A stretch of DNA of 64,000 bases from Medicago truncatula. Its lineage: Eukaryota > Streptophyta > Magnoliopsida > Fabales > Fabaceae. A model generated the notes under the pieces. The model saw only the letters and a program-made list of their open reading frames with translations. It was not told the DNA's origin and made no database searches. A program made the translations under genes and the position numbers. The stretch lies in the NCBI RefSeq assembly GCF_003473485.1, contig NC_053044.1:25045591-25109590 (forward strand), written 5' to 3'. Below are positions 1,352 through 40,784 of the stretch, piece by piece. The number at the start of each line of letters is the position of its first letter. Within the stretch, counting starts at the first letter, position 1.

Positions 1352-1842
1352 TCAGTCGCATATAAATCCCCAACCCTTACACATGATATTAAAAAACTCC
1401 TTATAGTTGACTAGTCCATTACCATCAACATCAGCCTCTTTGATAATCTCATTCACCTCTTCATGGGTCACGTTTTTTCCAAGAGTTATTATGACATGAC
1501 GAAGCTCAGCTGCAGAGAAGAAACCATCTTGGTCCTTGTCAAAAGCTGAGATTTGTTTATCAGTAAGTGGATTAATCATTGGAGAAAGATTTATCTCTGC
1601 AAAAGAGAAAGAAGATAAGAGGAGAAGGATGTGTTTGTGATATCGAATATTTGGTGAAATATAATTGAATATGCATTAAATTATTCAAACATATGTATTT
1701 AACTTAGAAAAATAAATTATAGGCTAGAGATTGATTTACTTGGAATAGGAGGCGGAGGAACATGAATATCAGCTGCAACTAGAGAAAAGATAATAACAAA
1801 AAAAACAAGACAGAGAAATAAATACGATTTTGAATAAGGCAT
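1352..1842 (-). CDS. CaML: CaML copy 1: secreted two-EF-hand calmodulin-like protein
   Basis: Two exons on the minus strand: exon 1 1740-1842 and exon 2 1352-1596, with an intron of only 143 bp (donor A|GTAAATC, acceptor TTTTGCAG|AG). The protein is 115 aa. Residues 1-34 form a signal peptide: [12 protein letters not shown], a hydrophobic core, then FSLVAA before DIHVPPP. Exon 2 retains a calmodulin-like start region ([10 protein letters not shown]) that runs straight into an EF3-like loop [12 protein letters not shown] and an EF4-like loop [12 protein letters not shown], ending ICD. Calmodulin EF1 and EF2 are therefore missing by an internal deletion; both remaining loops have canonical Ca2+ ligands. 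The family is secreted to the symbiosome space of nodules (established for M. truncatula CaMLs). The short intron, AGTAAA donor and proline-rich VPPPPIP segment make this the most divergent copy. The CaML number is not assigned. Confidence 0.85.
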
Positions 1843-1889
1843 ATCACTTTTTTACTATGAAATTGAAATAATTGATAAATAATAATAAT

Positions 1890-1960
1890 AATAATAATGT
1901 AGTAGTACATATATATAGATAAAAAATATGCCTTATATATGGGGTCAAGAGTCAAGTGTA
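1890..1960 (-). promoter_or_regulatory. CaML copy 1 promoter core
   Basis: On the minus strand a block resembling that of the other copies (CTTGACTCTTG upstream of a TATA element) lies above the signal exon. The TATA-like stretch is at about 1933-1940. An ATA/ATT-rich leader follows. The CTCTT within it matches the OSE2/NODCON2 nodulin-promoter motif, which is short and could occur by chance. Confidence 0.5.
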
Positions 1961-2062
1961 GTTATTATTATAAAAATTACAAACTAAAATGTAAAAAACT
2001 TATCTATGTAGAGTCTGTTTTATTTGCATATGAGAAATTATGAAAAAGTACATTATAAGACA

Positions 2063-2065
<3 letters not shown>

Positions 2066-2117
<52 letters not shown>
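2066..2117. repeat. (AT)n microsatellite
   Basis: An uninterrupted AT dinucleotide run of about 52 bp upstream of CaML copy 1. A second, shorter TA run lies near 2508-2531. Confidence 0.95.
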
Positions 2118-2120
<3 letters not shown>

Positions 2121-5525: not shown

Positions 5526-5533
5526 CTTAACAT

Positions 5534-7018: not shown

Positions 7019-7111
7019 CATATATTGATGGAGCTCATATGGATAGACGTAACCATTCTAATCCTTGTGAAACATACGGAAAGTTTCCTTAAGATCTTTG
7101 TCGTTCATCTT
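7019..7111 (-). pseudogene. EF-hand 3 relic downstream of CaML copy 2
   Basis: Directly after the CaML copy 2 stop, a shifted minus-strand frame reads [17 protein letters not shown], then a stop codon, then NGYVYPYELHQYM. This aligns with the calmodulin segment leading into EF3 (KMKD, ELKEAF, FDKD, NG, ELRHVM). It shows that copy 2 descends from a longer four-EF-hand gene shortened by a frame change at about 7111; the relic then decayed. No EF4 relic is recognisable further left. Confidence 0.7.
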
Positions 7112-8013
7112 ACATGCGCGCTGCGAGGTTGAGGAATTCGGAGAAATCAATGACACTATTCCCGTCAGTGTCGAACTTATTCATCGTGGCCAGCAAGTCG
7201 AACTCAGTTGGGTTCTGGCCGAGCGACCACATTAGAGTCCCAAATTCCTTGGCAGAAATACAACCATCTCCATCCTTATCGAAGAGGTTGAAAGCCTTCT
7301 TAAACTCTGAAACTTGTTTGTCATTGAGTTGATCGTCCATTGGAGGAAGATTTGGTTCTGCAGAAGCAAAAAGAGAAGAGGAGAATGATTTGTATGTTTT
7401 TTTAGAAAGGAGTTTCTATGATGCATTCACTATTTGCTCTCATTGTTCAATATGATCCGTACCCAAAATTTAGAATGGAGTTTATAGGATGGATTCATAA
7501 ATTGAATCGTTTAGGTGTGTTTGTTTCTGTGGAAAAAACTTCTTTTTTTCTAGGGAGGAAAAAAATCATTTTTATGAATTACAGAACTATTAATCGACTT
7601 GTGTAATTTAGGAGATATCATTTTATAATAAAAAAAAGAAAAAAAAACATGTAAAAAATTTCAATATTCTCTATTATTAGTAAATAAAATCTGAAAACAT
7701 TAAATGTTATATAGCTAACGCTTTTAGTAAATAATACTTATCTATTATAGTCTACACTTATCATGCGTGGTTGCAACATCCTTTATATTGTCTGGGCATT
7801 ACCGTAATTGTTTTAGCTGTCTCGCAGCAGCTTGCCTTTGTTTCCGGTTATGCTTCTTTACATACATAAATTTGAAATACAAAAATAAATTATAGGCTAG
7901 AATGACTCACCAATGGTAAGAGTCAGTGGAACATAACTATCGGCTAAAATTTGAGAAGAGGAAATGACATAAAGACCAAAACCAAGAAACAAATATAATT
8001 TTGAGTGATCCAT
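7110..8013 (-). CDS. CaML: CaML copy 2: secreted protein with calmodulin EF1-EF2 only
   Basis: Two exons: exon 1 7911-8013 and exon 2 7110-7357, with an intron of 553 bp (G|GTGAGTC to TTCTGCAG|AA). The protein is 116 aa. The signal peptide [15 protein letters not shown] has a hydrophobic core and an A-x-A-like site at SQILA before DSYVPL. Exon 2 adds EPNLPP, then the old calmodulin start [19 protein letters not shown]1 loop [12 protein letters not shown] (canonical) and EF2 loop [12 protein letters not shown] (Gly at position 6 replaced by Ser), ending NLAARM. The C-terminal half is lost; an EF3 relic follows the stop. This is the copy closest to ordinary calmodulin in its N-terminal half. 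It should be secreted to the symbiosome space by family analogy. Confidence 0.85.
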
Positions 8014-8059
8014 ATCACTTCTAGGCGGTGACAGTGCAATGGTTGATAAATAATAATGT

Positions 8060-8067
8060 AGTAGTTT

Positions 8068-8137
<70 letters not shown>

Positions 8138-8240
8138 GCAAGAAGTTGACCTGTTTATAGGGCCAAGAGTCAAGTTTAAATTTAAATTTAAATTAAGGCA
8201 AAGTATGTGGCTAAAAAACCTTTTGAAAGGATGTAAATAT
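8060..8240 (-). promoter_or_regulatory. CaML copy 2 promoter and AT-repeat leader
   Basis: TATAAA on the minus strand at 8154-8159 lies in the conserved context CTCTTGGCCCTATAAACAG. Downstream of it, inside the presumed leader, is an AT microsatellite of about 65 bp (8071-8135). The blocks further upstream (8170-8335) align with the promoters of copies 3-6. Confidence 0.7.
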
Positions 8241-8335
8241 TAATTAAAAAATTACAGTTGAAAACGTAACACATATTTATATAGAGCCTCTAAATTTGTG
8301 TTTTAGATTGGGTCAAGACTAATTTTCTCTTTGGA

Positions 8336-11227: not shown

Positions 11228-12881
11228 ACGAGCGGCAAAGCCCAAGTCTTGATTATCAACTGCTTGTGTATGTATAATTGTTTGGCGGGACGCCCACATT
11301 AGTCAGACTTTGTGTCGTCTCATCAGCCGTGCATCTCATTTGACTTCGAAATAATTGTATCATGATATTTAAGATAAGACATACTTTTGAAAAAGAGTTT
11401 AGTCTTGAAGAGTGAGAGACTAAGAACTTATATTGTTTTTCAATCCACTTTCCTCCATTTTCATTATCCTCGGATCAATTTTTTTAAAACAAGCATCGTA
11501 CAATTAGAGTTATGCACTAAGAAGTTTATAGTTTAAATTCTAATTATTTAGAAAATTAAATACTCTCATAAATTTTATTTATTTTAAATATTTTCGTTTA
11601 ATGAACTTACAAGCCTACTAGTTTTTTTGTTTACAATCAAAAATTGATGTGATTTCAAGTGGTGTAACAAGCAACATGATATTTTACTATTATATCATAA
11701 AATTCAAACAAATATATCATAAAAACTCGTCTCTTCTTCAAAATGGTTTTTGGTAATTCTTCAAGACATCCTTGTGTACACTACGGGTGGAGGGTGGAAC
11801 TTTTCTTGGGTGAAGATCAATAGCGGTGTCTGAGCAGAATTAGGCATGTTCTTGGGATGTGTTGGGGGCAGAATGCCACGTTGCAATTTTCCTCTTCTTT
11901 TGTGTGCCCTTGTTTGGATGTGTCTTGGTTGTTGTTGGTTGGTTCAGAGCTTTGGTTTTACTTTGTTTTAGTCCCTTTCGTTTCTCAGTCTTTTTTGTAG
12001 TTTTTTCCATTAGAAATGAGGGAAGAAAGTTATATTTTCAAAGACTAAATATATACTCCTTCCGTTTCAAAATATAAACAGAATTCATTTTTTAGGTTCA
12101 TTCATTTAATGATGTAAACGAGGGAAGAAAGTTATATTTTCAAAGACTAAATATATACTCCTTCCGTTTCAAAATATAAACAGAATTCACTTTTTAGGTT
12201 CATTCATTTAATGATGTATGTGGTTTATAATATGGAGGGAGTATTTGATTTCCTAAACTATATAACTTTTAAGTAAACAAAAAAATAGGATGGAAAGTAA
12301 AATACAAATGGATGGTCAGACAAAAGTCACTCGGACTACTTAAACAAAGGGACTGAGAAAACAAGTATAGAACTAATAATGAGTAGAAGCAATAATTAAA
12401 GCAAACAAGCCAACCAAAAAAAAACTAATGACCACAAATAAAACATCTAATAATAGAAATAGAACAACGGTTCTCATCAAAACTTGTTTAACGTGTCAAT
12501 TTTATATGTTCATGTGCTTTTTCAAATTTTTGGTTGGTCCCTTTGCTTTATGACCTTGGGTTAGAGGTGCATATTGCCCAACAAAATTTTAAATTTTTTT
12601 CCGTCAAAAAATTGCATGATTTAGTCATCCAAAATATCTCTATTTATATAAATAGTCGATGTTGCTTCAGCTTTTAAAATTTTAAATAATTGTTGTAGCT
12701 ATACCTAGAATATTATATTAAAATATATCACCAGTCTAGTTCTGTAAGGACTAAATATTATTTAATCCATTATAATTTCTAACACTTAGAAATTGAAAGA
12801 GTAATTTTAGCCATAATAGTTATCCTATTATGGTTATAGACTCCAAAAGGAAATGGAAAAAAAATAAGAAGGGGATGGGAG
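11228..12881. repeat. duplicated CaML intergenic module (copy near CaML 3)
   Basis: From GAGCGGCAAAGCCCAAGTC onward this stretch is homologous to 16570-17143 plus 19448-20314, to 32715-33016, and to 37014-38395. It lies between CaML genes and contains no coding sequence I can support. The shared order of blocks shows the cluster grew by duplication of units containing one gene plus its flanks. Confidence 0.8.
12056..12241. mobile_element. Stowaway-like MITE with internal tandem duplication
   Basis: Ends CTCCTTCCGTTTC and GGAGGGAG with flanking TA are typical of Tc1/mariner-type MITEs. Sister units read straight through (AGATATATATTTGATTTC near 19735 and 37815), giving an empty site. About 103 bp spanning host sequence and the MITE left half is repeated in tandem (about 12019-12121 and 12122-12224). 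Confidence 0.7.
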
Positions 12882-14485: not shown

Positions 14486-15755
14486 TCATGTGTTTGATCC
14501 GCTCCTGGACAAATCTTTGACAAACTCCTCAATGTTTATTTGTCCATCACCATCAAAATCAGCCTCACGAACAAATTCTTCCACATCTTCATATGTCACC
14601 TTTTGGCCGATATATGTCATAAAATAATGCAACTCAGATGTAGAGACAAAACCATTCTGATCCTTGTCACACATATGGAAAACTGCCACAAAATTTTCAT
14701 TATCAATAAAACCATCTTCATCCTTATCGATGAGGCTGAAATACGCCTTTATCTTTGATATTTGATTGTGATTGAGTTGATCGGCCATTGAAGGAAGATT
14801 GGGTTCTGCAAAAGTGCAAAGAGAAGATGAGAATGATTTGTATGTGTAATTTGAAAAATCCATTTTCTAAAATAACAACACAAATATCTAAAGGTGCAAT
14901 ACAAATGTGTAACGTGAAAAATCCGTTTACTCTAACACCTTATGACACGTAATAGAGCTCGACATTGATGGTTTGTTACTCTGTAACCAAGCTTATAAAA
15001 CGACCCCTTCAGCACAAAAGCAAAGTACACGCAATGTATACTAAAAACTATCATTTTTTGCACTCATACTGATTTGAATGTCGAAATATTTACATGTACC
15101 CCTAACTTAAATTTTGACGGTTGTTATTGTCGGACGCCATCATTATGGTAAAAAAGGATCAAGCATATTTTTCTTTTTTAAGTTATATGTTTCACTTTAG
15201 CTATATTAAATTTGTTGTCATACTCCTTTTTCTTCTCTTTCATCTCCCACCGGCCACCAACCCTTTTATCCCTCCATGACAACCCTAAGACCTGGAGACT
15301 TCTTGTTTTTCCGCATAAAGTACTAGTAGAATTAAAAAGATCCTTATTTGGGTCGTTGATTGATTTATGAGATTTCTTTCTAATCAATGAGGCAAAATAG
15401 CTTTAGATAATATCCAATCACCATAATTATGATTGTTAGTAGGCGCAATATGATCCATGCTAAAAATCTGCTCAGAAGTTTCTACGATACATCCACAAAT
15501 TGAATCATTTTGGTATATTTATTTAGGAAATAAAAAAGAAGCAAAATAGGGTGATAATTATATGCACATGTAAAACTTATTTAATATTAAATTCTTTACA
15601 TATATGGATTTGGCATAAAAAAAAAAAAAATTTATAGGCTAGAATGACTCACCAACAGTAAGCATTGGTGAAACATGAATATCAGCTAAAGCTTGAGAAG
15701 AGAGAAAAACAAAAAGATTAAGACCAAGAAACAAATAAGATTTTGAGTAAACCAT
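14486..15755 (-). CDS. CaML: CaML copy 3: secreted three-EF-hand calmodulin-like protein
   Basis: Exon 1 15653-15755 and exon 2 14486-14805, intron 847 bp (G|GTGAGTC to TTTTGCAG|AA); 140 aa. The signal peptide [20 protein letters not shown] ends SQALA before DIHVSP. Exon 2 starts EPNLPS followed by the retained calmodulin start [21 protein letters not shown]1 loop is [12 protein letters not shown] (last ligand Glu replaced by Asn). The chain then jumps via FVAVFHM to the EF3-like loop [12 protein letters not shown] and the EF4-like loop [12 protein letters not shown], so EF2 is deleted. It ends RSGSNT. A longer frame starting MDFSNY in the intron is not the start, because the acceptor site and homologous signal exon are clear. 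Expected in the symbiosome space. Confidence 0.87.
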
Positions 15756-15809
15756 GTCACTTCTTGATGATGATATTGCAATGGTTGATAATAAATAATA
15801 ATGTAGTAA

Positions 15810-19447: not shown

Positions 19448-20314
19448 TTAAGCATGTTCTAGTGATGTGTTGGGGGCACGATGCCACGTTGCAATTTTCC
19501 TCTTCTTGTGTGTGCTCTTGGTTGTTGCTGGTTGGTTCAGAGCTTTGGTTTGACTTTGTTTTAGTTCCTTTGGTTTCTCTGTCTTTTTTGTAGTTTTTTC
19601 CATTAGTTTTTCTCTTTTTTGTATTGTTATGTTGATCTTTAAGCACTTCTTCTATCGCATATCCTTATTACCTTCTCTTATGTATATATTTGTTATTCAA
19701 GAAGAGGGAAGAAAAATATATTTTCAAAGATTAGATATATATTTGATTTCAATGTAAACAAAGGGATGAAAAGTGAAAGTTATATTTGATTTCCTAAACT
19801 ATATAACTTTGAAGTCAACAAAAAAATTAAGATGAAAAGTGAAGTGCAAATGGATGGTGAGACAAAAGTCACTCAGACTACTTAAACCAAGGGACAGAAA
19901 ACAAGTAGAGATCTAATAATCAGGAGAAGCAATAATTAAAGTAAACAAGCCAACCAACAAAAAACTAATGACCCCAAATAAGACATCTTATAATCGAAAT
20001 AAAACAATAAGTTTAACAAGTCCATTTTATATGTTCATGTGCTTTTTCAAATTTTTTGTTGGACCCTTCACTTTATCATCACATCTAGTGGCATATCCAT
20101 GACCCTGGATCTATGGGTTCATACTTTTTCGTCCAACAAAATTTTAAATTTTTCTACGTAAAGACATCACACATTTTATTCATCCAAAATATCTCTATTT
20201 ACATAAACATATAGTCGATGTTGCTTCAACTTTTAGAATTTTATATAATTTTTGTTACTATATCTAGAATATTATATTAAAATATATGATCATATAGTTT
20301 TGTAAGGACTAAAA
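19448..20314. repeat. duplicated CaML intergenic module (right of the solo LTR)
   Basis: Continues the unit interrupted by the solo LTR; homologous to 11840-12780 and 37545-38395. No gene seen. The minus-strand frame at 19443-19646 is a simple lysine/asparagine-rich shadow. Confidence 0.7.
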
Positions 20315-21794: not shown

Positions 21795-22420
21795 TTGAGT
21801 TGGATGGTGTTTTATTTTGGATTGTAGTTAAGCCACATTTTGGATTGTAGTTAAACCACTAAACTTGTCCGAACTATAGTTTTGTTATTTTGTTAGGCTT
21901 ATACTTCGAAGCATTAAACTTATCAAGTAATGTTTGACATTTTGATTACTATTATGTCTTGAATTAATGTTTGAACTATGTTATTATATTACATCTTTTG
22001 TGGTTGTATTGTTAAATTCGATCTTGTTTGAGTTATAATTGACAATTCTAATATTGTCTTTAAGCTATAGTTACATTTCTAAAATAATTGAAAAATTCTA
22101 AAATTTTACAAGGACACTCTAAAAATGTTGCTTGTAAGTTATGGGGACGTTTTTATAATTTCTTAAAAGATTCAAATTTTAGGGGACGATTATTAATTGA
22201 AGCAACCTATGGGAACATTTAAAAACGTCCCCTCAGAATCCCCAAAAAATTGTCTCATATTCCTAAGGTTTAGGCGACGTTTTCAAAAACTGTGCCCAAA
22301 GAACATGAAAAAACGTCCCCATAGACTATAGGCGACGCTCGTATAGGAGACGCCGAGAAAACGTCCCCTATACCTTTAGGGGACGTTTTTCTTAGTTCTG
22401 GCAACATTTTTCGATTGTTA

Positions 22421-22718
22421 GGCTTAATTGCACTTTTGGACCCCTATCTTTCCAAAAGTTGTGGTTATGGCCCCCTAACTAATTTAAATACAAAACAACC
22501 CCCTATATTTTGATTCTTTGGCAGTTTTGGACCCCCAGTCCATTAGTGAGGTGCCACGTGTATTATTTAGGGGGTCACGTGGCACCTCACTAATGGATTG
22601 GGGGTCCAAAACTGCAAAAAAAAAATCAAAACATAGGGGCATGTTTTGTATTTAAATTAGTTAGGGGGCCATAACCGCAACTTTTGAAAAGATAGAGGTC
22701 TAAAAGTGCAATTAAGCC
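22421..22718. mobile_element. fold-back MITE nested in the CACTA element
   Basis: A near-complete inverted repeat: GGCTTAATTGCACTTTTGGACC at the left is mirrored by GTGCAATTAAGCC at the right, with arms (for example GTGAGGTGCCACGTG / CACGTGGCACCTCAC) extending to the centre, 298 bp in all. Flanks CGATTGTTA and TTGTTGTTA agree at 7 of 9 positions, suggesting a 9-bp Mutator-type duplication. It sits about 30 bp from the CACTA right end. Confidence 0.75.
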
Positions 22719-22751: not shown

Positions 22752-23741
22752 GTTATGTAATCCATTATAATTTCTAGCAGTTTGAAATTGAAAGAGTAAT
22801 TTTATCCATAATAGATAGAAAACTATCATGGCTATAATCTCCAAATAGAAAGGGAAAAAAATAAAAGAAGGGGAAAGAGAAAAATGAAAGAGTTACAAAA
22901 AAGCATATATGAAAAATGTCTCAAAAGAAAGAAAAAAAAAACAAATATGAAGCTATATAAAATTTCCGTCATGTCATGTTTTCCAAATGACAACAACATC
23001 GCTAAACAGTAGAACTTAATATGCACCATCATAAGGTCATGTCATGTTTTCGATCCTTGGTTCTGCTTTTTGGAATTTTCATTAGAAAGAAAAACCAAAC
23101 TTAAAACTAAGTTGTAAGGATTTTGGGGGTGTAAGTCCAAAATCTATAACCTTAATATTGGGGTCAAAATGTAAAAAAATAAAAAATAAGATTATTGGTG
23201 CAAATTTTCAAAACCCAGGGTGTGCATGTACTTATGAAGTCCAGATACTCCAAATTGGAGACATACATGTGTCGAATGCGAATGTATATGATTAAATTTA
23301 AGATATGAATCGCTATAATTGTATTTCGATTAACCAAATAAAAATTATATTTTTGGTGGATAAAAGTACCAAGAGAGAAAGGATATTCAATCAATCAACA
23401 TTAAATAAACTTTGTTTATAGTTTTTTTATTGATGTATTTGTTGATATCCAAACTTATGAATGAAAATAAAATATAATTTTTACGTAGACTTTACAACTT
23501 TTATTTTGATCATGTATTATTTTTCGTAAATCGTGACTTTTATGATTATATAGTATTGAAGAGTAATTAATTCTTATTTTTTTATCAAATATTTTGCATG
23601 TATTTAATTTTTAGTATAAATATTTTGTTAACGTATCTTAGTTGTATCGTATCCTGAATTTTAAAAATATCATGCATCCGCGTACCCGTATTGTATCGCA
23701 CTCGTACAACGTATTCGGGCTTCATAGATAAGTGCAAACCT
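22752..23741. repeat. duplicated 3' flank of CaML copy 4
   Basis: Almost base-for-base the same as 38395-39381, downstream of CaML copy 6. Partly present at 34500-34870 beside copy 5, including the block CGCGTACCCGTATCGTATC. Non-coding as far as I can see. Confidence 0.75.
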
Positions 23742-25184
23742 TCACTCCACAGTGAATCTGCCAAGTCTGACAAACTCCTTAAAGCTTAGATGTCCATCAC
23801 TATCAGAATCAGCCTCACGAACAAAGTCGCTCACTTCTTCATTGGTCGCCTTAATGCCTTGATTTGTCAAGTAATAATGCAACTCAGATGCAGTGACAAA
23901 ACCATTATGATCCGTGTTAGGCTTAGAGAAAGCTATGAGAAGCTCTTCTTTGGTGAAGTCAATGGTACCATTTCCGTCAGTGGCAGACTTATTCCTCGCT
24001 ACCATCAAGCCGAAATCAGTTGGGTTTAGGCCAGTAGACCGTATTAGAGTGTCAAGTTCTTCATTATCAATAGAAACATCTCCATCCTTATCGATGAGGC
24101 TGAAATACGCCTTTATCTTTGAGATTTGCTTGTCATTGAGTTGATCGGCCATTGAAGGAAGATTGGGTTCTGCAAAAGTACAAAGAGAAGATGATAATGA
24201 TTTGTGTGTGTAATGTGAAAAATCCATTTCCTAAAATAACTACACAAATATCTAAATGGTGCAATACAAATGTGTGTAAAGTGAAAAATCCATTTGCTCC
24301 TTAACACCTCATGACATGTAACAGTTAGAGCTCGACATTCATGGTTTGTTACTCTGTAACCAAGTATATAAAAAGCCCCTTTAGCACAGAACAAAAGTAC
24401 ACACAATATAAACTAAAAACTCTCATTTTTTGCACTTATACTTACTTGAATGTCTAAATATTTACATGTACCCCCTAACTTACATTTCGACGGTCGTTAT
24501 TGTCAGACGCCATCATTATGGTCAAAAAAGATCATGCATAATTTCCTTTTTTGAGTTATATGTTTCACTTTAGCTATATTAAATTTGTTGTCCTACTCCT
24601 TTCTCTTCTCTGACATCTCCCACCGGCCACCAACCCTTCTACCCCTCCATGACAATCCGAAGACCTTGAGACTTCTTGTTTCTATCACTTAAAGTGCTGC
24701 TAGAATTAAAAAGATCCTTATGTGGGTCGTTGATTGATTTATGAAATTTCTTTCTAATCAATGAGGCAAAATAGTTTTAGCTAATCTCCAATCACCAGAA
24801 TTATGATTGTTAGTAGGCACAATATGTCCCATGCCCAAAATTTACATATAAGTTTCTACGATACATTCACAAATTAAATCATTTAGGTATATTTGTTTTT
24901 TAGGAAACAAAAAAGAAGCATAATAGTGTGATAATTATATGCACGTGAAAAACAATTTTTTTTTTTTTTTTTTTATAAAATGCACGTGAAAAACTTGTTT
25001 AACTTGTTCAAAGATTAATATTAAATTCTTTACATATATGAATTGGACATATAAAAAAACTTATAGGCTAGAATGACTCACCGACAGTAAGCGTCGGTGG
25101 AACATGAATATCAGCTAAAACTTGTGAAGAGAGAAAAACAAAAAGATTAATACTAAGAAACAAATATGATTTTGAGTAAGCCAT
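23742..25184 (-). CDS. CaML: CaML copy 4: secreted four-EF-hand-derived calmodulin-like protein
   Basis: Exon 1 25082-25184 and exon 2 23742-24169, intron 912 bp; 176 aa. The signal peptide [20 protein letters not shown] ends SQVLA before DIHVPP. EPNLPS leads into [22 protein letters not shown]1 is DKDGDVSIDNEE (Gly6 replaced by Val). EF2 is damaged: the usual FDTDGNGTIDF has become SATDGNGTIDF and is followed by TKEE, so the first ligand Asp is Ala. EF3 is NTDHNGFVTASE and EF4 DSDSDGHLSFKE. The protein ends GRFTVE. It is close to copy 6, with substitutions clustered after EF3, which marks a recent duplication. By family analogy it is secreted to the symbiosome space; Ca2+ binding through EF1 and EF2 may be weak. 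Confidence 0.88.
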
Positions 25185-28177: not shown

Positions 28178-28268
28178 AATTGGCATCAAGAGCCTTTGGT
28201 TTCGTTCTAAGGGGTAATCAAGATCTTCAATCACGCAATTTATAGAAAGAAACGCTGAAGGAAACACC

Positions 28269-28970
28269 ATGAATGGTAGCAGCAGTTTCAACACACATCT
28301 TCCAATTCTTGAAGCACGTAATTGGGAAAGATGGAGTGCAGCGATGAAGAATCTGTTTGGAGCACAAGATTTGCTTGAAATTGTGCAGAATGGTGTAGAT
28401 GAATTAGCTGCGAATGCCACTGAAGTGCAAAGGAACGCACACAAGGAATTGAAGAAGAAAGATTGCAAGGCTCTGTTCTTGATTCAACAAAGTCTTGATG
28501 AAGGAAACTTTGAAAGAATCTCAAAATCACTGAGTTCAAAGGAAGCATGGGACATTCTTTCAAAGTATCATGAAGGTGATGATAAAGTGAAGTTGATTAA
28601 GCTTCAATCTCTGAGAAGGAAATTTGAGCTGATGCAAATGGAAGATGATCAGAAGATTTCTAAGTACATCTCTAAACTCATCAATCTTGTGAATCAGATG
28701 AAGGCTTGTAGTGAAGCTATCACTGATCAACAGATAGTTGAAAAGATTATGAGGATCCTATCTTCAAGGTTTGATTTCATTGTGGTGGCAATTCAGGAAT
28801 CAAAAGATGTTAAGACATTGAAGATTGAGGAGCTACAGAGTTCATTAGAAGCTCATGAATTGATGGTTTCAGAAAGAAGCAATGAAAGATCAATTCAACA
28901 AGCCCTGCAAGTTCAAACTATCAAGAAGGATGATTATGATAAGAAGAACTTCAAGAAAGGGAAACTCTAA
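28269..28970 (+). pseudogene. copia gag, interrupted
   Basis: The frame begins MNGSSSFNTHLPILEARNWE and includes FIQQSLDEGNFERISKSLSS-like helical gag (UBN2/Retrotran_gag type), which assembles the particle. It ends prematurely at KKGKL, while the basic region and zinc knuckle continue in another frame. Copia elements normally have one continuous gag-pol frame, so this is a frameshift. Confidence 0.85.
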
Positions 28971-29823
28971 GGGAGGAAACTGGTCTAAAGGCAAGAACAA
29001 TGGATCTGATAAAGGTGAATCTTCAAAGGAAGGAAATTCTAATCAAAAGAAGAAAGTTGATAAGAAGAAGATTCAGTGTTTCAAATGTGAGAAATTTGGA
29101 CACTATGCCTCTGAATGTTGGTCTGGTAAAGGAAAGCAATCAAAAAATGATGAAGAGGAAGCCAAAATTGCACAAGATGATTTAGATTCTGAATCATTAT
29201 TCATGATGGTTACAACAACTAGTAATGAGAGCTGCAATTCAGAAAGTTGGTTCTTAGATACTGGTTGTTCTAATCACATGACAGGAAACAAGACATGGTT
29301 AAGAGAAGTGGATCCTGGAAGAAATACAAAGGTGAAACTTGCAGATCATAGAGTCTTAATTGCAGAAGGAATGGGGAATATTGCTATTGAAGGAAAGAAT
29401 GGGAAAGTGGCAATAATTGAAGAAGTTCTCTATGTTCCTGGAATGCAGTGCAATTTGCTGAGTGTAGGTCAGTTCATTCAGAAAGGATACTCAGTTACTA
29501 TGAAGGACAACACCTTTAAGTTGTTTGATAATCATCAAAGGTTAGTTTTGAAAACTCCTCTTGCAAAGAATAGAACTTTTCAGACCAATATGAAAGCTGT
29601 AGAATTGAACTGTTTATCTGCTATGGTAAAAGATGAAGATAGCTGGTTATGGCACTATAGATTTGGTCATCTCAATTTTAGAGGTCTTAATCAATTGGTT
29701 GATAAAGAAATGATTCTGGGAGTGCCTAAAACCAGGAATTTGAAAACCCACTTCACATCTACACCATACTCAGAATCTGTATGGATTGAAACAGGCACCA
29801 AGAGCTTGGAACAAGAGAATTGA
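28950..29823 (+). pseudogene. copia gag C-terminus, protease and GAG-pre-integrase
   Basis: Contains the knuckle CFKCEKFGHYASEC (about 29079-29120), an aspartic protease with WFLDTGCSNHMTG (about 29248-29286) and the pre-integrase motif WHYRFGHLNFRGL (about 29647-29688). It then runs out of frame at the internal deletion near 29775; the integrase catalytic core is gone. Not functional as a polyprotein. Confidence 0.85.
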
Positions 29824-30880
29824 CAGATTTCTTGTACAGCAAGAATTTGTCAAATGCAAGTCTGAGTATGGTGTATATGTGAAGAAAGGAAGTGAAGGTA
29901 ATCAACTACTCATCTGCCTTTATGTTGATGATCTGATAGTGACTGGTAGTGATATGAATGAGATAGAAGCATTCAAATCACAAATGATGAGTGAGTTTGA
30001 AATGTCAGATTTAGGAAAATTGACATACTTTCTAGGCATGGAATTTACTGAAGTTGCAGAGGGATTGATAATGCACCAAAAGAAGTATGCATCTGATATA
30101 TTGAAGAGGTTCAATATGATGAGCTGCAATCCATCATCATCACCAGCTGAGACAAATGTAAAACTGGTAATGAATGAAGATGAAGAACCTGTGAATCCTA
30201 CATTGTTCAAGCAAATTGTTGGTTCACTGAGGTATCTATGCAATAGTAGGCCTGATATTGCATATGCAGTTGGCATAATCAGTAGATTCATGAGTGAACC
30301 AAGAGTCTCTCACCTGCTAGCAGCCAAAAGAGTGATGAGATACATCAAAGGAACACTGCAGTATGGTATTCTATTTCCTAAATGTTTGAATGATAGTTCT
30401 ATGGAACTGATGGCATATTCTGATGCTGATTGGTGTGGAGACAGACAAGATAGAAAGAGTACTTCAGGGTACCTATTCAAGTTTATGAATGCTCCAATTT
30501 CATGGTGTGCTAAGAAGCAACCAGTTGTAGCATTGTCAACCTGTGAATCTGAATATATTGCAGGGTGTATGGCAGCATGTTAGGCAATATGGCTTGAAAA
30601 TATACTCAAAGAGATGGAGATAGAGGTTAGCAGACCTATAGAATTGCTCATAGACAACAAATCTGCTATAAGCTTAGCAAGAAATCCAGTTCTGCATGGA
30701 AGAAGCAAGCATATAGAAGCAAAGTTTCATTTTCTAAGGGAGCAAGTGAACAAGGGAGCACTGCAGATTGTTCATTGCTCTACTGAGCTGCAGCTTGCAG
30801 ACATATTCACTAAGGCATTGAAGGTTGACAGATTCAACAAGCTCAGAAGCTTTATTGGAATGAAGGAAGTGGAAACTTGA
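29776..30880 (+). pseudogene. copia reverse transcriptase (3' half) and RNase H
   Basis: Begins abruptly inside RT at GLKQAPRAWNKRID, retains the catalytic-site motif YVDDL (about 29920) and the copia-typical motifs LTYFLGME and SRPDIAYAVG, and reaches RNase H (YSDADWCGD, STSGYLF). A TAG at 30581-30583 interrupts RNase H, which continues as AIWLENIL to 30880, ending MKEVET just before the polypurine tract. The N-terminal fingers of RT are missing. Confidence 0.88.
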
Positions 30881-30892
30881 ATTAAGGGAGGA

Positions 30893-31267: not shown

Positions 31268-31659
31268 GTTGAGGCCTTTAGTGCCAATTTTGTTGAAAGA
31301 ATAAGTATTTTCCGTTGCGACGTTGTTGAAAATTATTGGAAGCAGATGATTTTAATAAAGAGTGGATTTTAACTCTATTTGTGTTAAATATTATTTTGAA
31401 GAAAGAAATGTGATATTCTGTTTGTGATGAACTCTGATCTATTTTATATTATTTATATGTTGGGAAAATGGGGTGTTACATGTAGCAGAGAGGGGTTTGG
31501 AAGCATGAATCAGGGTTTGGCTTGAACGGAGTTTGTCACTTGTCAAACTAGCAAACATGGTGGTTTGCAGGTTGTGTCATAGGAGTGATATAAGGGTCCC
31601 TAGATTTGTCTCATGAAACATAAGTGATCTTGGGGAATGACCGCCTCCCAGGTATGCCA

Positions 31660-32706: not shown

Positions 32707-33016
32707 CTCCAATATATATATATTTGTTATTCAAAAGAGGGAAGAAAGTTATCTTTTCAAAGACTAAATATATATTTGATTTCGATGTAAACAAAGGGAT
32801 GAAAAATAAAAGTTATATTTGATTTTCTAAACTATATAACTTTTAAGTAAACAAAAAAATAAAATGGAAAGTGAAGTACAAATGGATGGTTAGACAAAAG
32901 TCACTCAGACTACTTAAACAAAGGGACAAAGCAAACAAGTATAGAACTAATGATTAGTAGTAGCAATAATTAAAGCAAACAAGCCAACCAACAAAAAACT
33001 AATGACCCCAAATAAA

Positions 33017-34244
33017 GGTGACATTTAACATGGGAAAGGGTAAAACTTTTCGACCATAGGACAGTTGATTTTAACCATGTGATTAAATAATGAGCACAAT
33101 CTTATCATGCTCTCTCAATAGTTAAATTTTTCCTCACTATCTTCTCCAACCATTCTCTCTCCTCAATGTCTCTCTCACAAACCCTTTAGCCATTAAATAG
33201 CCAAAAATCCTAATCCAGATGACAATGGAAGATGCATTCTGCTTTCAAAAAACAAATCTAAAACTAAAACAGAACTGAACGAAAATTAAACATTCAATCC
33301 TAGATTAATTTTCTTTTGAAAACCATTAAATTTTAGATTAAGTCATATAAATAATAACTTGGTTTTGATTCTTTTTACTTTCTTTTCTATTAATTCATTC
33401 ATCCACTAAAACACAGAGACATTGTCTCAGATTAGCAAGAATCTTGAATGGATTGTGTGTACGTTGGCAGGGACAGTAGCATTTATCACATGAAATTGTC
33501 TTTACGATTTGTTTGAATTTACGAGTGAAGAAGTTTTAAAATTGGTTTTGATACCCTTTGATTCCTTCAGTGAGATTAATAGAGATTTTCTTGAAGTTTT
33601 TCTCTTTAATTCCAACCAGAAGTTGTGACCGGAAACTCATCCACGGTGGCGTGCAGTGGCTCGCCGGTGTAGGAAGAAAGGCATACATCAAATTGGGACG
33701 GGGTTTAAGTTTTAACTCAAATTGAAGGTTGAAAAACATACTTCTAGAAGAAAAAACATACTTCGTCCTAAACATGTTTAAGTTTTAATTCTTCTGGAAA
33801 AAAAACGATATTGGGATGGCAGGTTTGATGTTGGTGGTGGTCAGTGGCGGAGCCAGGAATATTGTAAAGCCCAGACAAAAAAAAAAATTGCAACACATTT
33901 ATAGGGCGTACATAAGAAATTGCAAGCAAATAATAAAAAATGTAAAGAAATTGCCCAATTTATAGGGTTTTATATAAGAAATTCATAGGGATTTACACAA
34001 GAAATTGCAAAAAATTTGGCCCGGAGCCCGGCCGAGTGCCCGGGGTCGCCGGGCCTTAGAACCGCCCCTGGTGGTGGTGGGTTAGTGAGGCATGAAGAAG
34101 AAAGAATAGCGTTGGAAGATGGTGTAGAAGAATAATATGGTGCTGAGAGACTATGATAAATGTGTGTACTTTATTTGATCAAATGGTTAATATTAATTTT
34201 TCTATGGTGGGAAAGTTTTACCCTTTTCCATGTTAAATGCCACC
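33017..34244. mobile_element. non-autonomous Mutator-like (MULE) element
   Basis: Inverted ends GGTGACATTTAACATGGGAA and CCATGTTAAATGCCACC, with similarity extending into GGGTAAAACTTT / AAAGTTTTACCC. A perfect 9-bp duplication CCAAATAAA lies at 33008-33016 and 34245-34253. Sister units show the single-copy site ACCCCAAATAAAACATCT (near 38055). It is 1228 bp with no transposase. The interior (33180-33800) contains non-repeat-like sequence that could be a captured host fragment, but I recognise no gene in it. Confidence 0.85.
33842..34070. mobile_element. small hAT-like MITE nested in the MULE
   Basis: Ends CAGTGGCGGAGCCAGG and CCGCCCCTG (reverse CAGGGGCGG), flanked by GTGGTGGT on both sides (33834-33841, 34071-34078), an 8-bp hAT-type duplication. 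The flank is low-complexity GGT, so the duplication is less certain. GC-rich right half (CCCGGGGTCGCCGGGC). Confidence 0.6.
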
Positions 34245-34253
34245 CCAAATAAA

Positions 34254-34878
34254 ACATCTAATAATAGAAATAGAACAATAATTCTCATCAAAACTCGTTT
34301 AACATGTCCATTTTATATGTTCATGTGCTTTTTCAAATTTTTTGCTGGTCCCTTCACTTTATCGTCACATCCAGTGGTGTATCCATGACCCTAGTTCAAA
34401 GGGTGCATACTTTTTCGTCCAACAAATTTAATACCCATTTTGGAGTATCCATTTATGAATTATACCCAAGTGCCTATGAAAGTCCAGATACTCCAAAATG
34501 GAGATGTACCTGGATTGGATGTGGATGTATATGATTCAATCAATCAACATTAAATAAAATTTGTTTAGAGTTCTTTTATTGATGCATTTGTTGATATCCT
34601 AACATATGAATGAAAATAGAATATGATTTATAGATCACTTCACAATTTTTATTTTGATCATATGTATTATTTTCTGTAAATCGTGACTTTTATGATTATA
34701 TAGTATTGAAGAGTAATTAATGCTTTTTTTTCAAATATTTTACATGCATATAAATTTTACTATAAATATTTTGTTATCGTATCTTAGCCATATCATATCC
34801 TAAATTTTAAAATTTTCGTGTATCCGCGTACCCGTATCGTATCGTACCCGTACTCGTACTATGTTTATTTGCACACCT
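34254..34878. repeat. duplicated intergenic module, 3' flank of CaML copy 5
   Basis: Resumes unit homology after the MULE (compare 12440-12620 and 38058-38250), then jumps to sequence matching 23220-23720 and 38870-39350. Roughly 600 bp present between these blocks in units 4 and 6 is missing here. No gene seen. Confidence 0.65.
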
Positions 34879-36187
34879 TCAGACCACAATGGATCCACCC
34901 ATGGTCACAGCTTTGACAAACTCCTCAAAGTTTATTTGTCCATCACCATCAACATCAGCCTCACGAACATACTCGTCCACTTCTTCCTTGGTCACCTTGG
35001 TGCCGTGATTTGTCAAGTAATAATGCAACTCAGATGCAGAGACAAAACCATTATGATCCTTGTCAGGCTTAGGGAAAGATATGATAAAATCTTCTTCGGT
35101 GAAATCAATGGTACCATTTCCGTCAGCGTCAAACTTATTCATTGCTACCATCAGGCCGAAAAACGTTGGGTTTAGGCCAAGCGACCGTATTAGAGTCTGA
35201 AGTTCATCATTATCAATAGAAAAATCTTGATCCTTATCGAGAAGTCTGAAATACGCCTTTATCTTTGAGATTTGCTTGTCATTGAGTTGATCGGTCATTG
35301 AAGGAAGATTGGGTTCTGCAAAAGTACAAAGAGAAGATGAGAATGATTTGTATGTGTAATGTGAAAAATCCATTTCCTAAAATAACTACCCAAATATCTA
35401 AATGGTGCAATACAAATGTGTGTAAAAATCCGTTTACTCTATAACACCTCATGACACGTAATAGAGCTCGACATTGATGGTTCGTTAATCTGTAACCAAG
35501 CTTATAAAAGGACCCCTTCAGCACAAAAATAAAGTACACACAATGTATACTAAAAACTATCATTTTTTGCACTCATACTGATTTGAATGTATAAATATTT
35601 TCATGTAACCTTAACTTAGACTTCGACGGTTGTTAATGTCGTCTCCTTTCTCTTCTCTTCCATCTCCCACCGGCCACCAACCCTTTTATTCCTCCATGAT
35701 AATCCCAAGATCTGGAGACTTCTTGTTTTATCGCATAAAGTACTAGTAGAATTAAAAAGATCCTTATTTGGGTCGTTGATTGATTTATGAGATTTCTTTC
35801 TAATCAATGAGGCAAAATAGCTTTAGCTAATCTCCAATCACCATAATTATGATTGTTAGTAGGCTCAATATGATCCATGCTGAAAATTTACTCAGAAGTT
35901 TCTACGATACATTCACAAATTGAATCATTTTGGTATATTTGTTTAGGAAATAAAGAAGAAGCATAATAGAATGATAATTATATGCACATGTAAAACTTGT
36001 TTAACTTGACCATAGATTAATATTAAATTCTTTACATATATGCATTTGGTATACAAAAAAAAATTATAGGCTAGAATGACTCACCAACAGTAAGCATTGG
36101 TAAAACATGAATATCAGCTAAAGCTTGAGAAGAGAGAAAAACAAAAAGATTAAGACCAAGAAACAAATATGAATTTGAGTAACCCAT
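34879..36187 (-). CDS. CaML: CaML copy 5: secreted four-EF-hand calmodulin-like protein, best-preserved loops
   Basis: Exon 1 36085-36187 and exon 2 34879-35315, intron 769 bp; 179 aa, the longest copy. The signal peptide [20 protein letters not shown] ends SQALA before DIHVLP. Then come EPNLPS and [22 protein letters not shown]1 is DKDQDFSIDNDE (Gly6 replaced by Phe). EF2 DADGNGTIDFTE, EF3 DKDHNGFVSASE and EF4 DVDGDGQINFEE all keep canonical ligands. The end is VTMGGSIVV. With all four hands, it is the nearest in layout to full-length calmodulin (149 aa) plus a signal peptide. It is predicted to bind Ca2+ in the symbiosome space, most likely through three hands. Confidence 0.9.
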
Positions 36188-36239
36188 GTCACTTATTGGT
36201 GATGATATTGCAATGGTTGATAATAAATAATAATGTAGT

Positions 36240-36245
36240 AATTTG

Positions 36246-36288
<43 letters not shown>

Positions 36289-36400
36289 AAAGAAGTTGCT
36301 CTATTTATAGGGCCAAGAGTCAAGTTGAAGTTTAAATTTAAATTAATGCAAAACTTGTGGCTAAAAAACGTTCTGAAAGGATGTGAATATTAATTTAGAA
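36240..36400 (-). promoter_or_regulatory. CaML copy 5 promoter and AT-repeat leader
   Basis: TATAAA on the minus strand at 36304-36309 after CTCTTGGCCC. The leader holds GTGTGTGT followed by an (AT)n run at about 36255-36285. Conserved upstream blocks extend to about 36620 and the MITE-like module after it. Confidence 0.7.
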
Positions 36401-36404
36401 ATAA

Positions 36405-39381
36405 CAGTTGAAAATGCAACATTTATTTATACACTCTTTGATTTGAGTTCTTGATTGGGTAAAGACCCATTTTCCCTATGGATTCTTTTGCTTTAAAATA
36501 ACAAAATAACAAATTAAGATGATTAGAGCTAATTATCATCAAATAACATTTCTAGTACTAGATTAAAATAAAGTTATTTTCTTATTTTATTTATAACAAT
36601 GTGTAATTTGTTATTTTTCACAAATGATTGGGACTTTCGAGGGAAGAGCAATGGAGGGTTTATAAAAAATGAAAGGAAGAAGTGGAAAGAATGGAGTGGT
36701 ATAAGAGTGGAAGGCTTTGTGGGGTTTAGTTTTCTTCATAATACAAAATCCCCTTAATTTGGGGGAACTAAAAATTTGTATTGAAGGAGGATTTTGGGGA
36801 ATTTGGATAAGTTTTTCAAATCTAATCTATGTTGTTATAATACTTTAAAGTTTAAAGTTAAAAATACATTAATCATAAGTATTTATTTACAATTCTCTAC
36901 AAAACTACACACTCCAAAAATTTAAAAGATTTTTCTATTTTTTTCCTCTAATCTCATCCCTCAAAAACCATTTTCTTCCCTTCCCCTTCAAACTTTCAAA
37001 CAGAGTCTAAGAGCAGCAAAGCACAAGTCTTGGTAATCACTTGCTTGTCTATGTATAATTGTATGGTGGGACGCCCACTTTAGCCGGACTTTGTGTCGTC
37101 TTGTCAGTCGTGCATTTTATTTGACTACGAAATAATTGTATCATGATATTTTAGATAGCACATATTTATAATGTTTTTCAATCAACCGTCCTACATTTTT
37201 CTTTGTCCTCGGATTAATTTTTTAAAATCAAGCATTGTACAATTCGAGTTATGCACTCGTAGTTTATAGTTTAAGCTCTAATTTTTTAGAAAATTAAATG
37301 CTCTTATAAAAAAAAAAAATACTTTAAATATTTTGGTTTAATAAACTTGCAGGCCTACTAATATTTTGTTTTCATTCAAAAATTGATGTGATTTCAAGTG
37401 GTGTAAAGGGAAACATGATGTTTTACTATTACATCATAAAATTCAAACAAATACATCATAAAATTCGTGTCTCTTCTTCAAAATGGTTTTTGGTAATTCG
37501 TCAAGACATCCTGGTATGCACCATGAGTGGAGGGTGGATTAGGCATGTTCTAGTGATGTGTTGGGGGCACAATGGCACGTTGCAATTTTCTTCTTCTTGT
37601 GTATGCTCTTGTTTGGGTGTGGCTTGGTTGTTGTTGGTTGGTTCACAGCTTTAGTTTGACTTTGTTTTAGTTCCTTTGGTTTCTCTCTCTTTTTTGTAGT
37701 TTTTTTTCCATTAGCTTTCTCTTTTTTGTATTGTTATGTTGATCTTTAAGCACTTCTTATATTATGTATATATTTGTTATTCAAGAAGAGGGAAGAAAAT
37801 TATATTTTCAAAGACTAGATATATATTTGATTTCAATGTAAACAAAGGGATGAAAAGTGAAAGTTATATTTGATTTCCTAAACTATATAACTTTGAAGTA
37901 AACAAAAAATTAAGATGAAAAGTGAAGTACAAATGGATGGTGAGACAAAAGCCACTCAAACTACTTAAACCAAGGGACAAAGCGAACAAGTAGAGAACTA
38001 ATAATCAGGAGAAGCAATAATTAAAGTGAACAAGGCAACCAACAAAAAACTAATGACCCCAAATAAAACATCTTATGATAGAAATAAAACAATAAGTTTA
38101 ACGAGTCCATTTTATATGTTCATGTGCTTTTTCAATTTTTTTGTTGGACCCTTCACTTTATCGTCACATCTAGTGGCATATCCACGATCCTGGATCTATG
38201 GGTTCATACTTTTTCGTTCAACAAAGTTTTAAATTTTTCTACGTAAAGACATCACACATTTTATTCATCCAAAATATCTCTATTTACATAAATAGTCGAT
38301 GTTGCTTCAACTTTTAGAATTTTATATAATTTTTGTTACTATATCTAGAATATTATATTAAAATATATAATCACATAGTTTCGTAAGGACTAAAAGTTAT
38401 CTAATCCATTATAATTTCTAGCACTTTGAAATTGAAAGAGTAATTTTATCCATAATAGATAGAAAACTATCATGGCTATAGTCTCCAAATAGAAAGGAAA
38501 AAAAAATAAAAGAAGGGGAAAGAGAAATATGAAAGAATTACAAAAAAGCATATATGAAAAATTTCTCAAAAGAAAGAAAAAAAAAACAAATATGAAGCTA
38601 TATATATAAAATTTGCATCCAAATGACAACAACATCATAATAGCTAAACAGTAGAACATAATATGCAGCATCATAAGGTCATGTCATGTTTTCGATCCTT
38701 GGTTCTGCTTTTTGGAATTTTCGTTAGAAAGAAAAACCAAACTTAAAACTAAGTTGTAAGGATTTTGGGGGTGTAAGTCCAAAATCTATAACCTTAATAT
38801 TGGGGTCAAAATGTAAAAAAAAATAAAATAAGATTATTAGTGCAAATTTTCAAAACCCAGGGTGTGCATGTACTTATGAAGTCCAGATAGTCCAAATTGG
38901 AGACATACATGTGTCGAATGCGAATGTATATGATTAAATTTAAGATATGAATCGCTATAATTGTATTTCGATTAACCAAATAAAAATTATATTTTTGGTG
39001 GATAAAAGTACCGAGAGAGAGGATATTCAATCAATCAACATTAAATAAACTTTGTTTATTGTTTTTTTATTGATGTAGTTGTTGATATCCAAACTTATGA
39101 ATGAAAATAGAATATAATTTTTACGTAGACTTTACAACTTTTATTTTGATCATGTATTATTTTTCGTAAATCGTGACTTTTATGATTATATAGTATTGAA
39201 GAGTAATTAATGCTTATTTTTTTATCAAATATTTTGCATGCATATAAATTTTAGTATAAATATTTTGTTAACGTATCTTAACTGTATCGTATCCTGAATT
39301 TTAAAAATATCGTGTATCCGCGTACCCGTATCGTATCACACTCGTACTACGTATTCGGGCTTCATAGGCAGGAGCAAACCT
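36405..39381. repeat. duplicated intergenic module between CaML copies 5 and 6
   Basis: The least interrupted version of the unit spacer, lacking the solo LTR (site at about 37543), the CACTA element (38391), the MULE (about 38060) and the TRIM/TOM7 block (about 38525) seen elsewhere. It therefore serves as the empty-site reference. No gene recognised. Confidence 0.75.
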
Positions 39382-40784
39382 TCACTCCACAGTGAATCTG
39401 CCAAGTCTGACAAACTCCTTAAAGCTTAGATGTCCATCACCATCAGAATCAGCCGCACGAACATACTCGTTCGCTTCTTCAATGGTCATCTTAATGCCTT
39501 GATTTGTAAAGTAACAATGCAACTCAGATGCAGTGACAAAACCATTATGATCCGTGTCAGGCTTAGAGAAAACTATGAGAAGCTCTTCTTTGGTGAAATC
39601 AATGGTACCATTTCCGTCAGTGGCAGACTTACTCCTCGCTACCATCAAGCCGAAATCAGTTGGGTTTAGGCCAGTAGACCGTATTAGAGTGTCAAGTTCT
39701 TCATTATCAATAGAAACATCTCCATCCTTATCGATGAGGCTGAAATACGCCTTTATCTTTGAGATTTGCTTGTCATTGAGTTGATCGGCCATTGAAGGAA
39801 GATTGGGTTCTGCAAAAGTACAAAGAGAAAATGATAATGATTTGTATGTGTAATGTGAAAAATCCATTTCCTAAAATAACTACACAAATATCTAAATGGT
39901 GCAATACAAATGTGTGTAAAGTGAAAAATCTATTTACTCCTTAACACCTCATGACATGTAACAGTTAGAGCTCGACATTGATGGTTTGTTACTCTGTAAC
40001 CAAGTATATAAAAGAGCCCCTTCAGCACAAAAGAAAAGTACACAAAATATAAACTAAAAACTCTCAATTTTTGCACTCATACTTACTTGAATGTCTAAAT
40101 ATTTACATGTACCCCCTAACTTACATTTCGACGGTTGTTATTGTCGGACACCATCATTATGGTCAAAAAAGATCATGCATAATTTTCTTTTTTAAGTTAT
40201 ATGTTTCACTTTAGCTATATTAAATTCGTTGTCCTACTCCTTTCTCTTCTCTTCCATCTTCAACTGGCCACCAACCCTTCTACCCCTCCATGACAACCCG
40301 AAGACCTTGAGACTTCTTGTTTCTATCGCTTAAAGTGCTGGTAGAATTAAAAAGATCCTTGTGTGGGTCGTTGATTGATTTATGAGATTTCTTTCTAATC
40401 AATGAGGCAAAATAGTTTTAGCTAATCTCCAGTCACCAGAGTTATGAGTGTTAGTAGGCGCAATATGATCCATGCCCAAAATTTAGATAAAAGTTTCAAC
40501 GATACATTCATAAATTGAATCATTTTGGTATTTTTTTTTTCAGGAAATAAAAAAGAAGCATAATAGTGTGTTAATTATATTCACATGTAAAACTTGTTTA
40601 ACTTGACCATAGATTAATATTAAGTTCTTTACATATAAAAATTTGACATACAAAAATAAATTATAGGCTAGAATGACTCACCGACAGTAAGCATTGGTGG
40701 AACATGAATATCAGCTAAAACTTCAAAAGAGAGAAAAACAAAAAGATTAAGACCAAGAAATAAATATGATTTTGAGTAAGCCAT
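39382..40784 (-). CDS. CaML: CaML copy 6: secreted four-EF-hand-derived calmodulin-like protein
   Basis: Exon 1 40682-40784 and exon 2 39382-39809, intron 872 bp; 176 aa. The signal peptide [20 protein letters not shown] ends FEVLA before DIHVPP. EPNLPS precedes [20 protein letters not shown]. Loops: EF1 DKDGDVSIDNEE (Gly6 to Val), EF2 SATDGNGTIDF with the first ligand lost, EF3 DTDHNGFVTASE, EF4 DSDGDGHLSFKE. It ends GRFTVE like copy 4. It differs from copy 4 mainly in the linker after EF3 (GIKMTIEEANEYVRAAD against GIKATNEEVSDFVREAD). It is the rightmost cluster member; unit homology ends about 430 bp upstream of its start. Expected in the symbiosome space. Confidence 0.88.

Follow-up and report, generated by a model that had tools for sequence, protein, structure and literature searches.

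How does a general cell protein such as calmodulin come to be recruited for symbiosis? A well-known case is the family of calmodulin-like (CaML) genes of Medicago truncatula, and the question is raised here by a 64,000-nt stretch of its genome (C3:25045591-25109590, hereafter the window; C3, C5, C6 and C7 denote contigs), in which six predicted minus-strand genes, g1 to g6, each join a 103-nt phase-1 exon 1 (34 codons plus one base), called the signal exon below, to a single calmodulin-derived exon 2. These genes are almost surely the nodule CaML cluster of this species, a family that is already known, and the g1-g6 numbering is independent of the CaML1-6 numbering. We propose, with a probability of roughly 0.8, that this cluster, which stands under a NOD25-type promoter with a NOD25/N22-type signal exon, was founded by a retroposed mRNA of a calmodulin gene on C5. 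It is also probable, though we hold this a little less firmly, that this symbiosis-specific secreted family owes its founding to a calmodulin mRNA that came by retroposition from a different chromosome to a site downstream of a nodulin signal exon, and that the mRNA's own 5' untranslated region (5'UTR) both provided a splice acceptor (TGCAC to TGCAG) and today encodes the first residues of the calmodulin part.

Results

Probable Traces of a Calmodulin mRNA

Four full calmodulin genes were compared with the cluster, namely those on C5 (C5:39503070-39500553), C6, C3 and C7, and all four carry an intron in the Gly26 codon (2068, 2683, 763 and 1041 bp, respectively). Exon 2 of g2-g6 runs through the Gly26 stretch without an intron, so that the precise loss of a parental intron by which retrocopies are recognised is seen in these five genes, and in g1 the stretch is deleted. 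A comparison of the C5 calmodulin intron with the region gave a single 36-bp match, at 47405, away from any CaML gene.

The sequence before the calmodulin ATG was aligned with the C5 5'UTR, and the scores were compared with those of 300 shuffles in which letters were shuffled within 25-nt blocks. Genes g2-g6 scored 56-62 with shuffle maxima of 30-38 (0 of 300 as good for each gene), while g1 scored 35 and is marginal, with 1 of 300 shuffles as good. When the 5' sequences of the six genes were aligned in the same way with the calmodulins of C6, C3 and C7, none of the 18 alignments stood out (37-287 of 300 shuffles equalled them). In searches of the whole genome (429.9 Mb, 42 contigs), the 161-nt acceptor region of g2 was found at six places, which are g2 itself, four of the five other cluster copies (all except g1) and C5:39503020-39503126 (E 3.8e-14).

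At the acceptor site, an alignment of seven sequences has TGCAC in the C5 parent and TGCAG in all six CaML genes, and before the ATG the parent is 4 nt longer (21 vs. 17 nt), the same 4-nt gap being common to the six. As 17 nt fits the reading frame and the parent's 21 nt would not, this 4-nt length difference sets the frame; it could have arisen by loss in the founder or by gain in the parent, and the C/G change could likewise have gone either way. The residues right after the acceptor equal translated 5'UTR, and they read (E)PNLPS in g3-g6, (E)PNLPP in g2 and (K)INLSP in g1. Homology to the parent begins at -73 in g4-g6, at -57 in g3 and at -55 in g2. The C5 gene has TATAAATA, a TATA box, at -112 to -105, and the -73 limit lies 32 nt past it; for C5 sequence upstream of -75, no match was found in the introns of any of the six genes (76-100 of 100 shuffles as good).

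At the other end, the C5 3'UTR is present downstream of g3-g6, 0.5-3.7 kb from the coding part and in two pieces in g5 (Table 1). A first test of the 700 nt behind each stop detected it only for g5 (0 of 100 shuffles as good, 8-58 of 100 for the other five genes), and a wider search for g3-g6. A 304-nt query from behind the C5 stop has seven places in the genome: C5 itself, the C3 calmodulin (75%) and five cluster pieces (80-87%). The matches end at +281 in g3, g5 and g6 and at +278 in g4, and the first g5 piece ends at +127; the match of the C3 paralogue runs to the end of the query, past +281.

Beyond what the earlier note on this DNA had described, the second exon is, as read from its letters, a calmodulin exon that lacks the calmodulin intron and has calmodulin 5'UTR and, in g3-g6, 3'UTR. 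Such a combination fits a processed mRNA copy, since the cluster then holds what appears to be the transcribed portion of a single calmodulin gene, minus the intron, and this is the mark of such copies.

Probable Parent and Age

Each of the six genes had a lower synonymous divergence (dS) to the C5 calmodulin than to the other three, with values to C5 of 0.57-0.65 for g3-g6, 0.91 for g1 and 1.03 for g2, with six of the values to the other calmodulins being saturated. In the tree, the six CaML genes split from the four calmodulins (94/94), and C5 plus CaML split from the other three calmodulins (98/98), with g1 as a long branch whose placement is unsure. One founding event for the six genes would be the simplest reading. 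The tree, together with the dS of g3-g6 (against 1.03 for C5 to C3), suggests that the fusion came after the C5 and C3 calmodulins had separated, although g1 and g2 stand closer to the C5-C3 value; the presence or absence of the fusion in related legumes would therefore be a direct test.

Gene Models and the Signal Exon

Six tandem genes, each with a 103-nt signal exon and one calmodulin exon, had been put forward in the earlier note, and the models and their coordinates hold for all six (Table 1). Tandem duplication and the derivation of exon 2 from calmodulin hold as well, and the equation with the symbiosome CaML family is supported. The predicted donors are GTGAGT in five genes and GTAAAT in g1, all six starting with GT, and a scan of 100 nt in each gene left a single AG acceptor that is in frame. 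The predicted introns of g1-g6 measure 143, 553, 847, 912, 769 and 872 nt, the frame is open across the modelled splice junction in every gene, and the predicted proteins have 115, 116, 140, 176, 179 and 176 amino acids. Exon 2 of g5 used as a genome query gave 46 matches, and the best place beyond the cluster is a calmodulin (59%).

A 201-nt query around g5 exon 1 matched eight places in the genome (all eight candidates were scored; E 4.6e-99 to 3.4e-20). They lie together in some 56 kb of C3, and as these clustered places are the only ones, the likeness of the signal exons is not due to chance. They are g1-g6, an N22-like gene at C3:25,030,806 and a NOD25-like gene at C3:25,035,961, about 15 and 10 kb before the window start, so the cluster extends beyond the window, in which it had been taken to be complete. 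A search with the 34-aa g6 peptide led to the same eight places (eight of eight scored), with weak matches at the two beyond the window (E 0.03 and 0.5). As read from the sequence, the N22-like exon has 103 nt and the NOD25-like exon 97 nt, both are in the same phase, and in the NOD25-like gene the signal exon is followed by acidic repeats, which resemble the repetitive modules described for NOD25. The two names are based on sequence similarity, the downstream repeats and the synteny given in PMC9655500, where N22 adjoins NOD25; no accession was matched.

Similarity to the NOD25-like gene runs through promoter, exon 1 and the beginning of the intron: in g1 and g3-g6 it covers 250-373 bp (67-72%), and g2 shows two separate pieces (72-73%). 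The N22-like gene is matched over a shorter stretch. In g3-g6, intron 1 has a further 53-55-bp block at 84-87% to the NOD25-like intron, with no match in the N22-like gene. The similarity of the signal exons to nodulins, which had been predicted, was found when exon 1 was compared with both genes, and exon 1 of g3-g5 is nearer to the N22-like (80-84% over the first 76 nt) than to the NOD25-like exon (76% over 72 nt), which weighs against a clear NOD25 parentage of the exon itself. A signal peptide of 34 amino acids had also been assumed, but cleavage was placed by eye near residue 24, between LA and D in five genes and between AA and D in g1, and the signal peptide proper would thus be about 24 amino acids long rather than all 34 codons.

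Table 1. Coordinates of the cluster genes, calmodulin remnants and neighbouring elements (window positions).
Feature	Position	Strand	Basis or remark
g1 exon 1 (signal exon, 103 nt, donor GTAAAT)	1740..1842	-	gene model
g1 exon 2: start derived from 5'UTR, then EF3-EF4 only	1352..1596	-	gene model, parent alignment
g2 exon 1 (signal exon, 103 nt)	7911..8013	-	gene model
g2 exon 2: EF1-EF2, early stop	7110..7357	-	gene model
g3 exon 1 (signal exon, 103 nt)	15653..15755	-	gene model
g3 exon 2: EF1 (position 12 lost), EF3, EF4	14486..14805	-	gene model, loop scoring
g4 exon 1 (signal exon, 103 nt)	25082..25184	-	gene model
g4 exon 2: four EF loops, ligands lost in two	23742..24169	-	gene model, loop scoring
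g5 exon 1 (signal exon, 103 nt)	36085..36187	-	gene model
g5 exon 2: four EF loops, every scored ligand position kept, EF1 without Gly6	34879..35315	-	
g6 exon 1 (signal exon, 103 nt)	40682..40784	-	gene model
g6 exon 2: four EF loops, EF2 ligands lost	39382..39809	-	gene model, loop scoring
5'UTR-derived end of g5 intron 1 (last 54 nt): predicted polypyrimidine tract and AG acceptor from calmodulin	35316..35369	-	
Equivalent 5'UTR-derived intron end, g2	7358-7397	-	
Equivalent 5'UTR-derived intron end, g3	14806-14847	-	
Equivalent 5'UTR-derived intron end, g4	24170-24223	-	
Equivalent 5'UTR-derived intron end, g6	39810-39863	-	
g5 intron 1 block	35779..35831	-	85% to NOD25-like intron (ATG-relative 357-409)
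g3 calmodulin 3'UTR remnant	12272..12530	-	parent +25 to +281
g4 calmodulin 3'UTR remnant	19817..20055	-	parent +25 to +47, +85 to +278
g5 calmodulin 3'UTR, first piece	34242..34341	-	parent +25 to +127
g5 calmodulin 3'UTR, second piece	32846..33017	-	parent +115 to +281
g6 calmodulin 3'UTR remnant	37897..38139	-	parent +25 to +47, +85 to +281
Copia-type long terminal repeat (LTR) retrotransposon between g4 and g5, three successive frames	28218-30583	+	gag, zinc knuckle (below cut-off), Pol_BBD, gag_pre-integrase, RVT_2
Multi-exon FtsZ-like gene, about 5 kb from g6	45847-49550	-	Tubulin/FtsZ GTPase, FtsZ_C; piece 49233-49550 below cut-off
Possible sodium/hydrogen exchanger-like exon	53634-53924	-	E 1.2e-6, just above cut-off
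Dispersed ~330-bp repeat, ATACG-type motifs	34533-34864 (g5), 39025-39353 (g6), 23385-23707 (g4)	-	
~300-bp stretch like a miniature inverted-repeat transposable element	22414-22718	both	85-90% to 194-491 bp upstream of C3 calmodulin ATG
Weak Transposase_24 (Ptta/En/Spm) match	20543-21037	+	below curated cut-off

The Calmodulin Part and Its Losses

The calmodulin portion is complete in none of the six genes. Four EF loops are kept only in g4-g6, which are without about 15 codons that in calmodulin sit between EF2 and EF3 (the central linker region), while g3 keeps EF1, EF3 and EF4, g2 keeps EF1-EF2 and g1 keeps EF3-EF4; in g2, parent-like sequence continues behind the early stop, positions -55 to 323 of the parent mRNA corresponding to window 7397-7026. 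Fifteen of the 19 loops in the six proteins keep all the scored ligand positions (1, 3, 5 and 12), the deficient ones being g3 EF1, g4 EF2, g4 EF3 and g6 EF2, and four loops are without Gly6 (g2 EF2, g4 EF1, g5 EF1 and g6 EF1). The predicted proteins are therefore related to calmodulin and are not calmodulin proper, as the set of four EF-hands, two lobes and a central linker is incomplete in them. An AlphaFold model of the g5 calmodulin part, made with 6 sequences, had a mean predicted local distance difference test (pLDDT) value of 58.6, which is too low to use, and its matches in the PDB were calmodulins and calmodulin-based sensors with query template-modelling (TM) scores of 0.3-0.5, so nothing was gained over the sequence.

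The ratio of nonsynonymous to synonymous divergence (dN/dS) was 1.13-1.66 for the six pairs among g3-g6, as pairwise values over the whole coding sequence with no codon-model test. Between g3 and g4-g6, exon 2 (14486-14805 in g3) differs by 17-19% and the introns by 6.5-10%, and the exon was the more divergent in all three g3 pairs (p 4e-4 to 7e-7); in g4-g5 and g5-g6 the difference was not significant (p 0.09 and 0.05), and in g4-g6 the exon was the less divergent (p 0.04). With such mixed contrasts, selection is not separable from gene conversion.

These losses bear on whether some of the six genes are decaying, non-functional copies, as the early stop of g2 with parent-like sequence behind it, the lost ligands of g3, g4 and g6 and the dN/dS values above 1 could suggest. 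We consider it unlikely, because an open frame over the modelled junction and NOD25-type promoter sequence are kept in all six genes, and CaML expression and symbiosome localisation are reported, although not gene by gene, in PMC3667139 and PMC10356799.

Discussion

To hypothesize, the calmodulin gene that today lies at C5:39.50 Mb would have given a spliced mRNA, of which a DNA copy was inserted behind a NOD25-type promoter and signal exon. The 5'UTR of this copy, rich in pyrimidines, would then have turned into a splice acceptor, with TGCAG in all six genes where the parent has TGCAC, and the 17 nt behind the acceptor into codons, with the 4-nt length difference setting the frame. Tandem duplication would have led to six copies, followed by the loss of the central linker or of whole lobes and of some Ca2+ ligands.

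This differs from the model of Liu et al. from 2006 (Plant Physiol 141:167), which reportedly involves a "nearby" calmodulin gene. In the form restated from that work in PMC8871812, the family arose by DNA-level unequal recombination between nodulin-25 and a (nearby) calmodulin gene, and the calmodulin intron would have been lost later. The NOD25-type 5' part of this model is confirmed by our results, but the model as a whole is quite unlikely, since the calmodulin intron is absent, the homology ends near the expected mRNA start without the promoter and again at +281, the best-matching parent lies elsewhere, on contig C5, and the nearest full calmodulin gene on C3, among the best 150 of 172 candidates, is at 15.18 Mb, about 9.9 Mb off. 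The 5' half of the published model would stand, and its calmodulin half is better fitted by a processed mRNA copy.

That a mobile element (an LTR element, a Helitron or similar) carried the calmodulin cDNA in, instead of retroposition of the long interspersed nuclear element (LINE) type, is improbable to about the same degree: a copia-type element and dispersed repeats do lie in or beside the genes and a clean poly(A) tract is missing, but the two flanks share no repeat beyond a short word, and the g6 3' flank, the sole flank searched genome-wide, is confined to the cluster save for its 3'UTR part.

Several observations weigh against the proposed retroposition of a C5 mRNA. The homology limits at -73 and +281 are sharp, but the ends of the C5 mRNA with which they are compared are themselves inferred. 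After the 3' limit there is no clean poly(A) tract, only TAAAAG, TCAAAG or similar, although a remnant may have been lost if the copy is old. Only g4 and g6 carry the candidate target-site repeat, TTTAGGAAAT, in exact form at both limits, and the longest shared flank word is 6 in g5 and 5 in g3, where the 5' limit was set by eye to match the others; the repeat was equalled in 0.33% of 20,000 random pairs, the word having been spotted by eye before the test. No empty insertion site was found via the flanks in a 93.6-kb region, nor genome-wide with the g6 3' flank, which returned only cluster copies and the C5 3'UTR. In g1 the 5'UTR match is marginal and the Gly26 stretch is absent, and for g1 and g2 no 3'UTR was detected in the wider search. 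The cluster is similar to the 3'UTR of the C3 calmodulin too, though less so than to that of C5, and dS between the C5 and C3 calmodulins is 1.03, so that the values of g1 and g2 are little or not below it. Furthermore, the distal intron of g2-g6 gave no score above shuffles against the NOD25-like intron 1291-1700 (five of five genes), and the NOD25-derived part is therefore not traceable up to the acceptor.

If retroposition of the C5 mRNA is true, unequal crossing-over gives way to retroposition plus capture of an exon as the origin of the family, its two ends and its acceptor being known nearly to the base. The accessible portions of the literature on CaML gave no account of a retroposed origin; the 2006 original may itself discuss the intron or the 5'UTR.

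Other Features of the Window

The remaining elements of Table 1 comprise the LTR retrotransposon, the FtsZ-like gene, the possible exchanger exon, the repeats and the transposase match. The repeat of about 330 bp begins 12-35 nt behind the stops of g5, g6 and g4, and it has at least 44 matches genome-wide (among the best 40 of 325 candidates, cluster included).

Function and Comparison with Known Systems

According to published work, CaML genes are nodule-specific (PMC3667139, PMC8871812) and enriched in infected cells (PMC3667139), and CAML1-GFP was seen at the symbiosome by microscopy and blocked in a signal peptide peptidase mutant, although a Western blot did not detect it (PMC10356799). 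From the anatomy of the genes and these papers, the NOD25-type promoter would direct expression to infected nodule cells, the signal exon would lead to the endoplasmic reticulum, and the product would reach the peribacteroid (symbiosome) space. A shortened linker or a lost lobe makes calmodulin-like wrapping of target peptides unlikely, and our best guess is that the proteins bind or buffer Ca2+ in the peribacteroid space.

CaML1-6 of M. truncatula were reportedly described by Liu et al. in 2006 as one cluster with nodulin-25 and nodulin-22, with a NOD25-type signal exon and targeting to the symbiosome. Genes g1-g6 agree with this in two respects, as six clustered calmodulin-like genes that have a nodulin-25/22-related signal exon in the same cluster; there is no difference in the genes, only in the inferred origin (C5 mRNA copy vs. 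unequal recombination). NOD25 (nodulin-25) and MtN22 have the promoter, the signal exon and the start of the phase-1 intron in common with CaML, and the NOD25-like gene has the intron block as well, but neither has a calmodulin exon, and the NOD25-like gene proceeds to acidic repeats. The C5 calmodulin is the best match for the CaML 5'UTR, coding part and 3'UTR; unlike CaML, it carries an intron at Gly26, an unbroken central linker and all four EF loops, and it has no signal exon. Plant chimeric retrogenes, as described in PMC9369113, are like CaML in that a processed mRNA copy is joined to foreign sequence. The retrocopied genes of that source include an early nodulin, whereas here it would be the calmodulin copy that took a nodulin signal exon, its 5'UTR becoming the acceptor.

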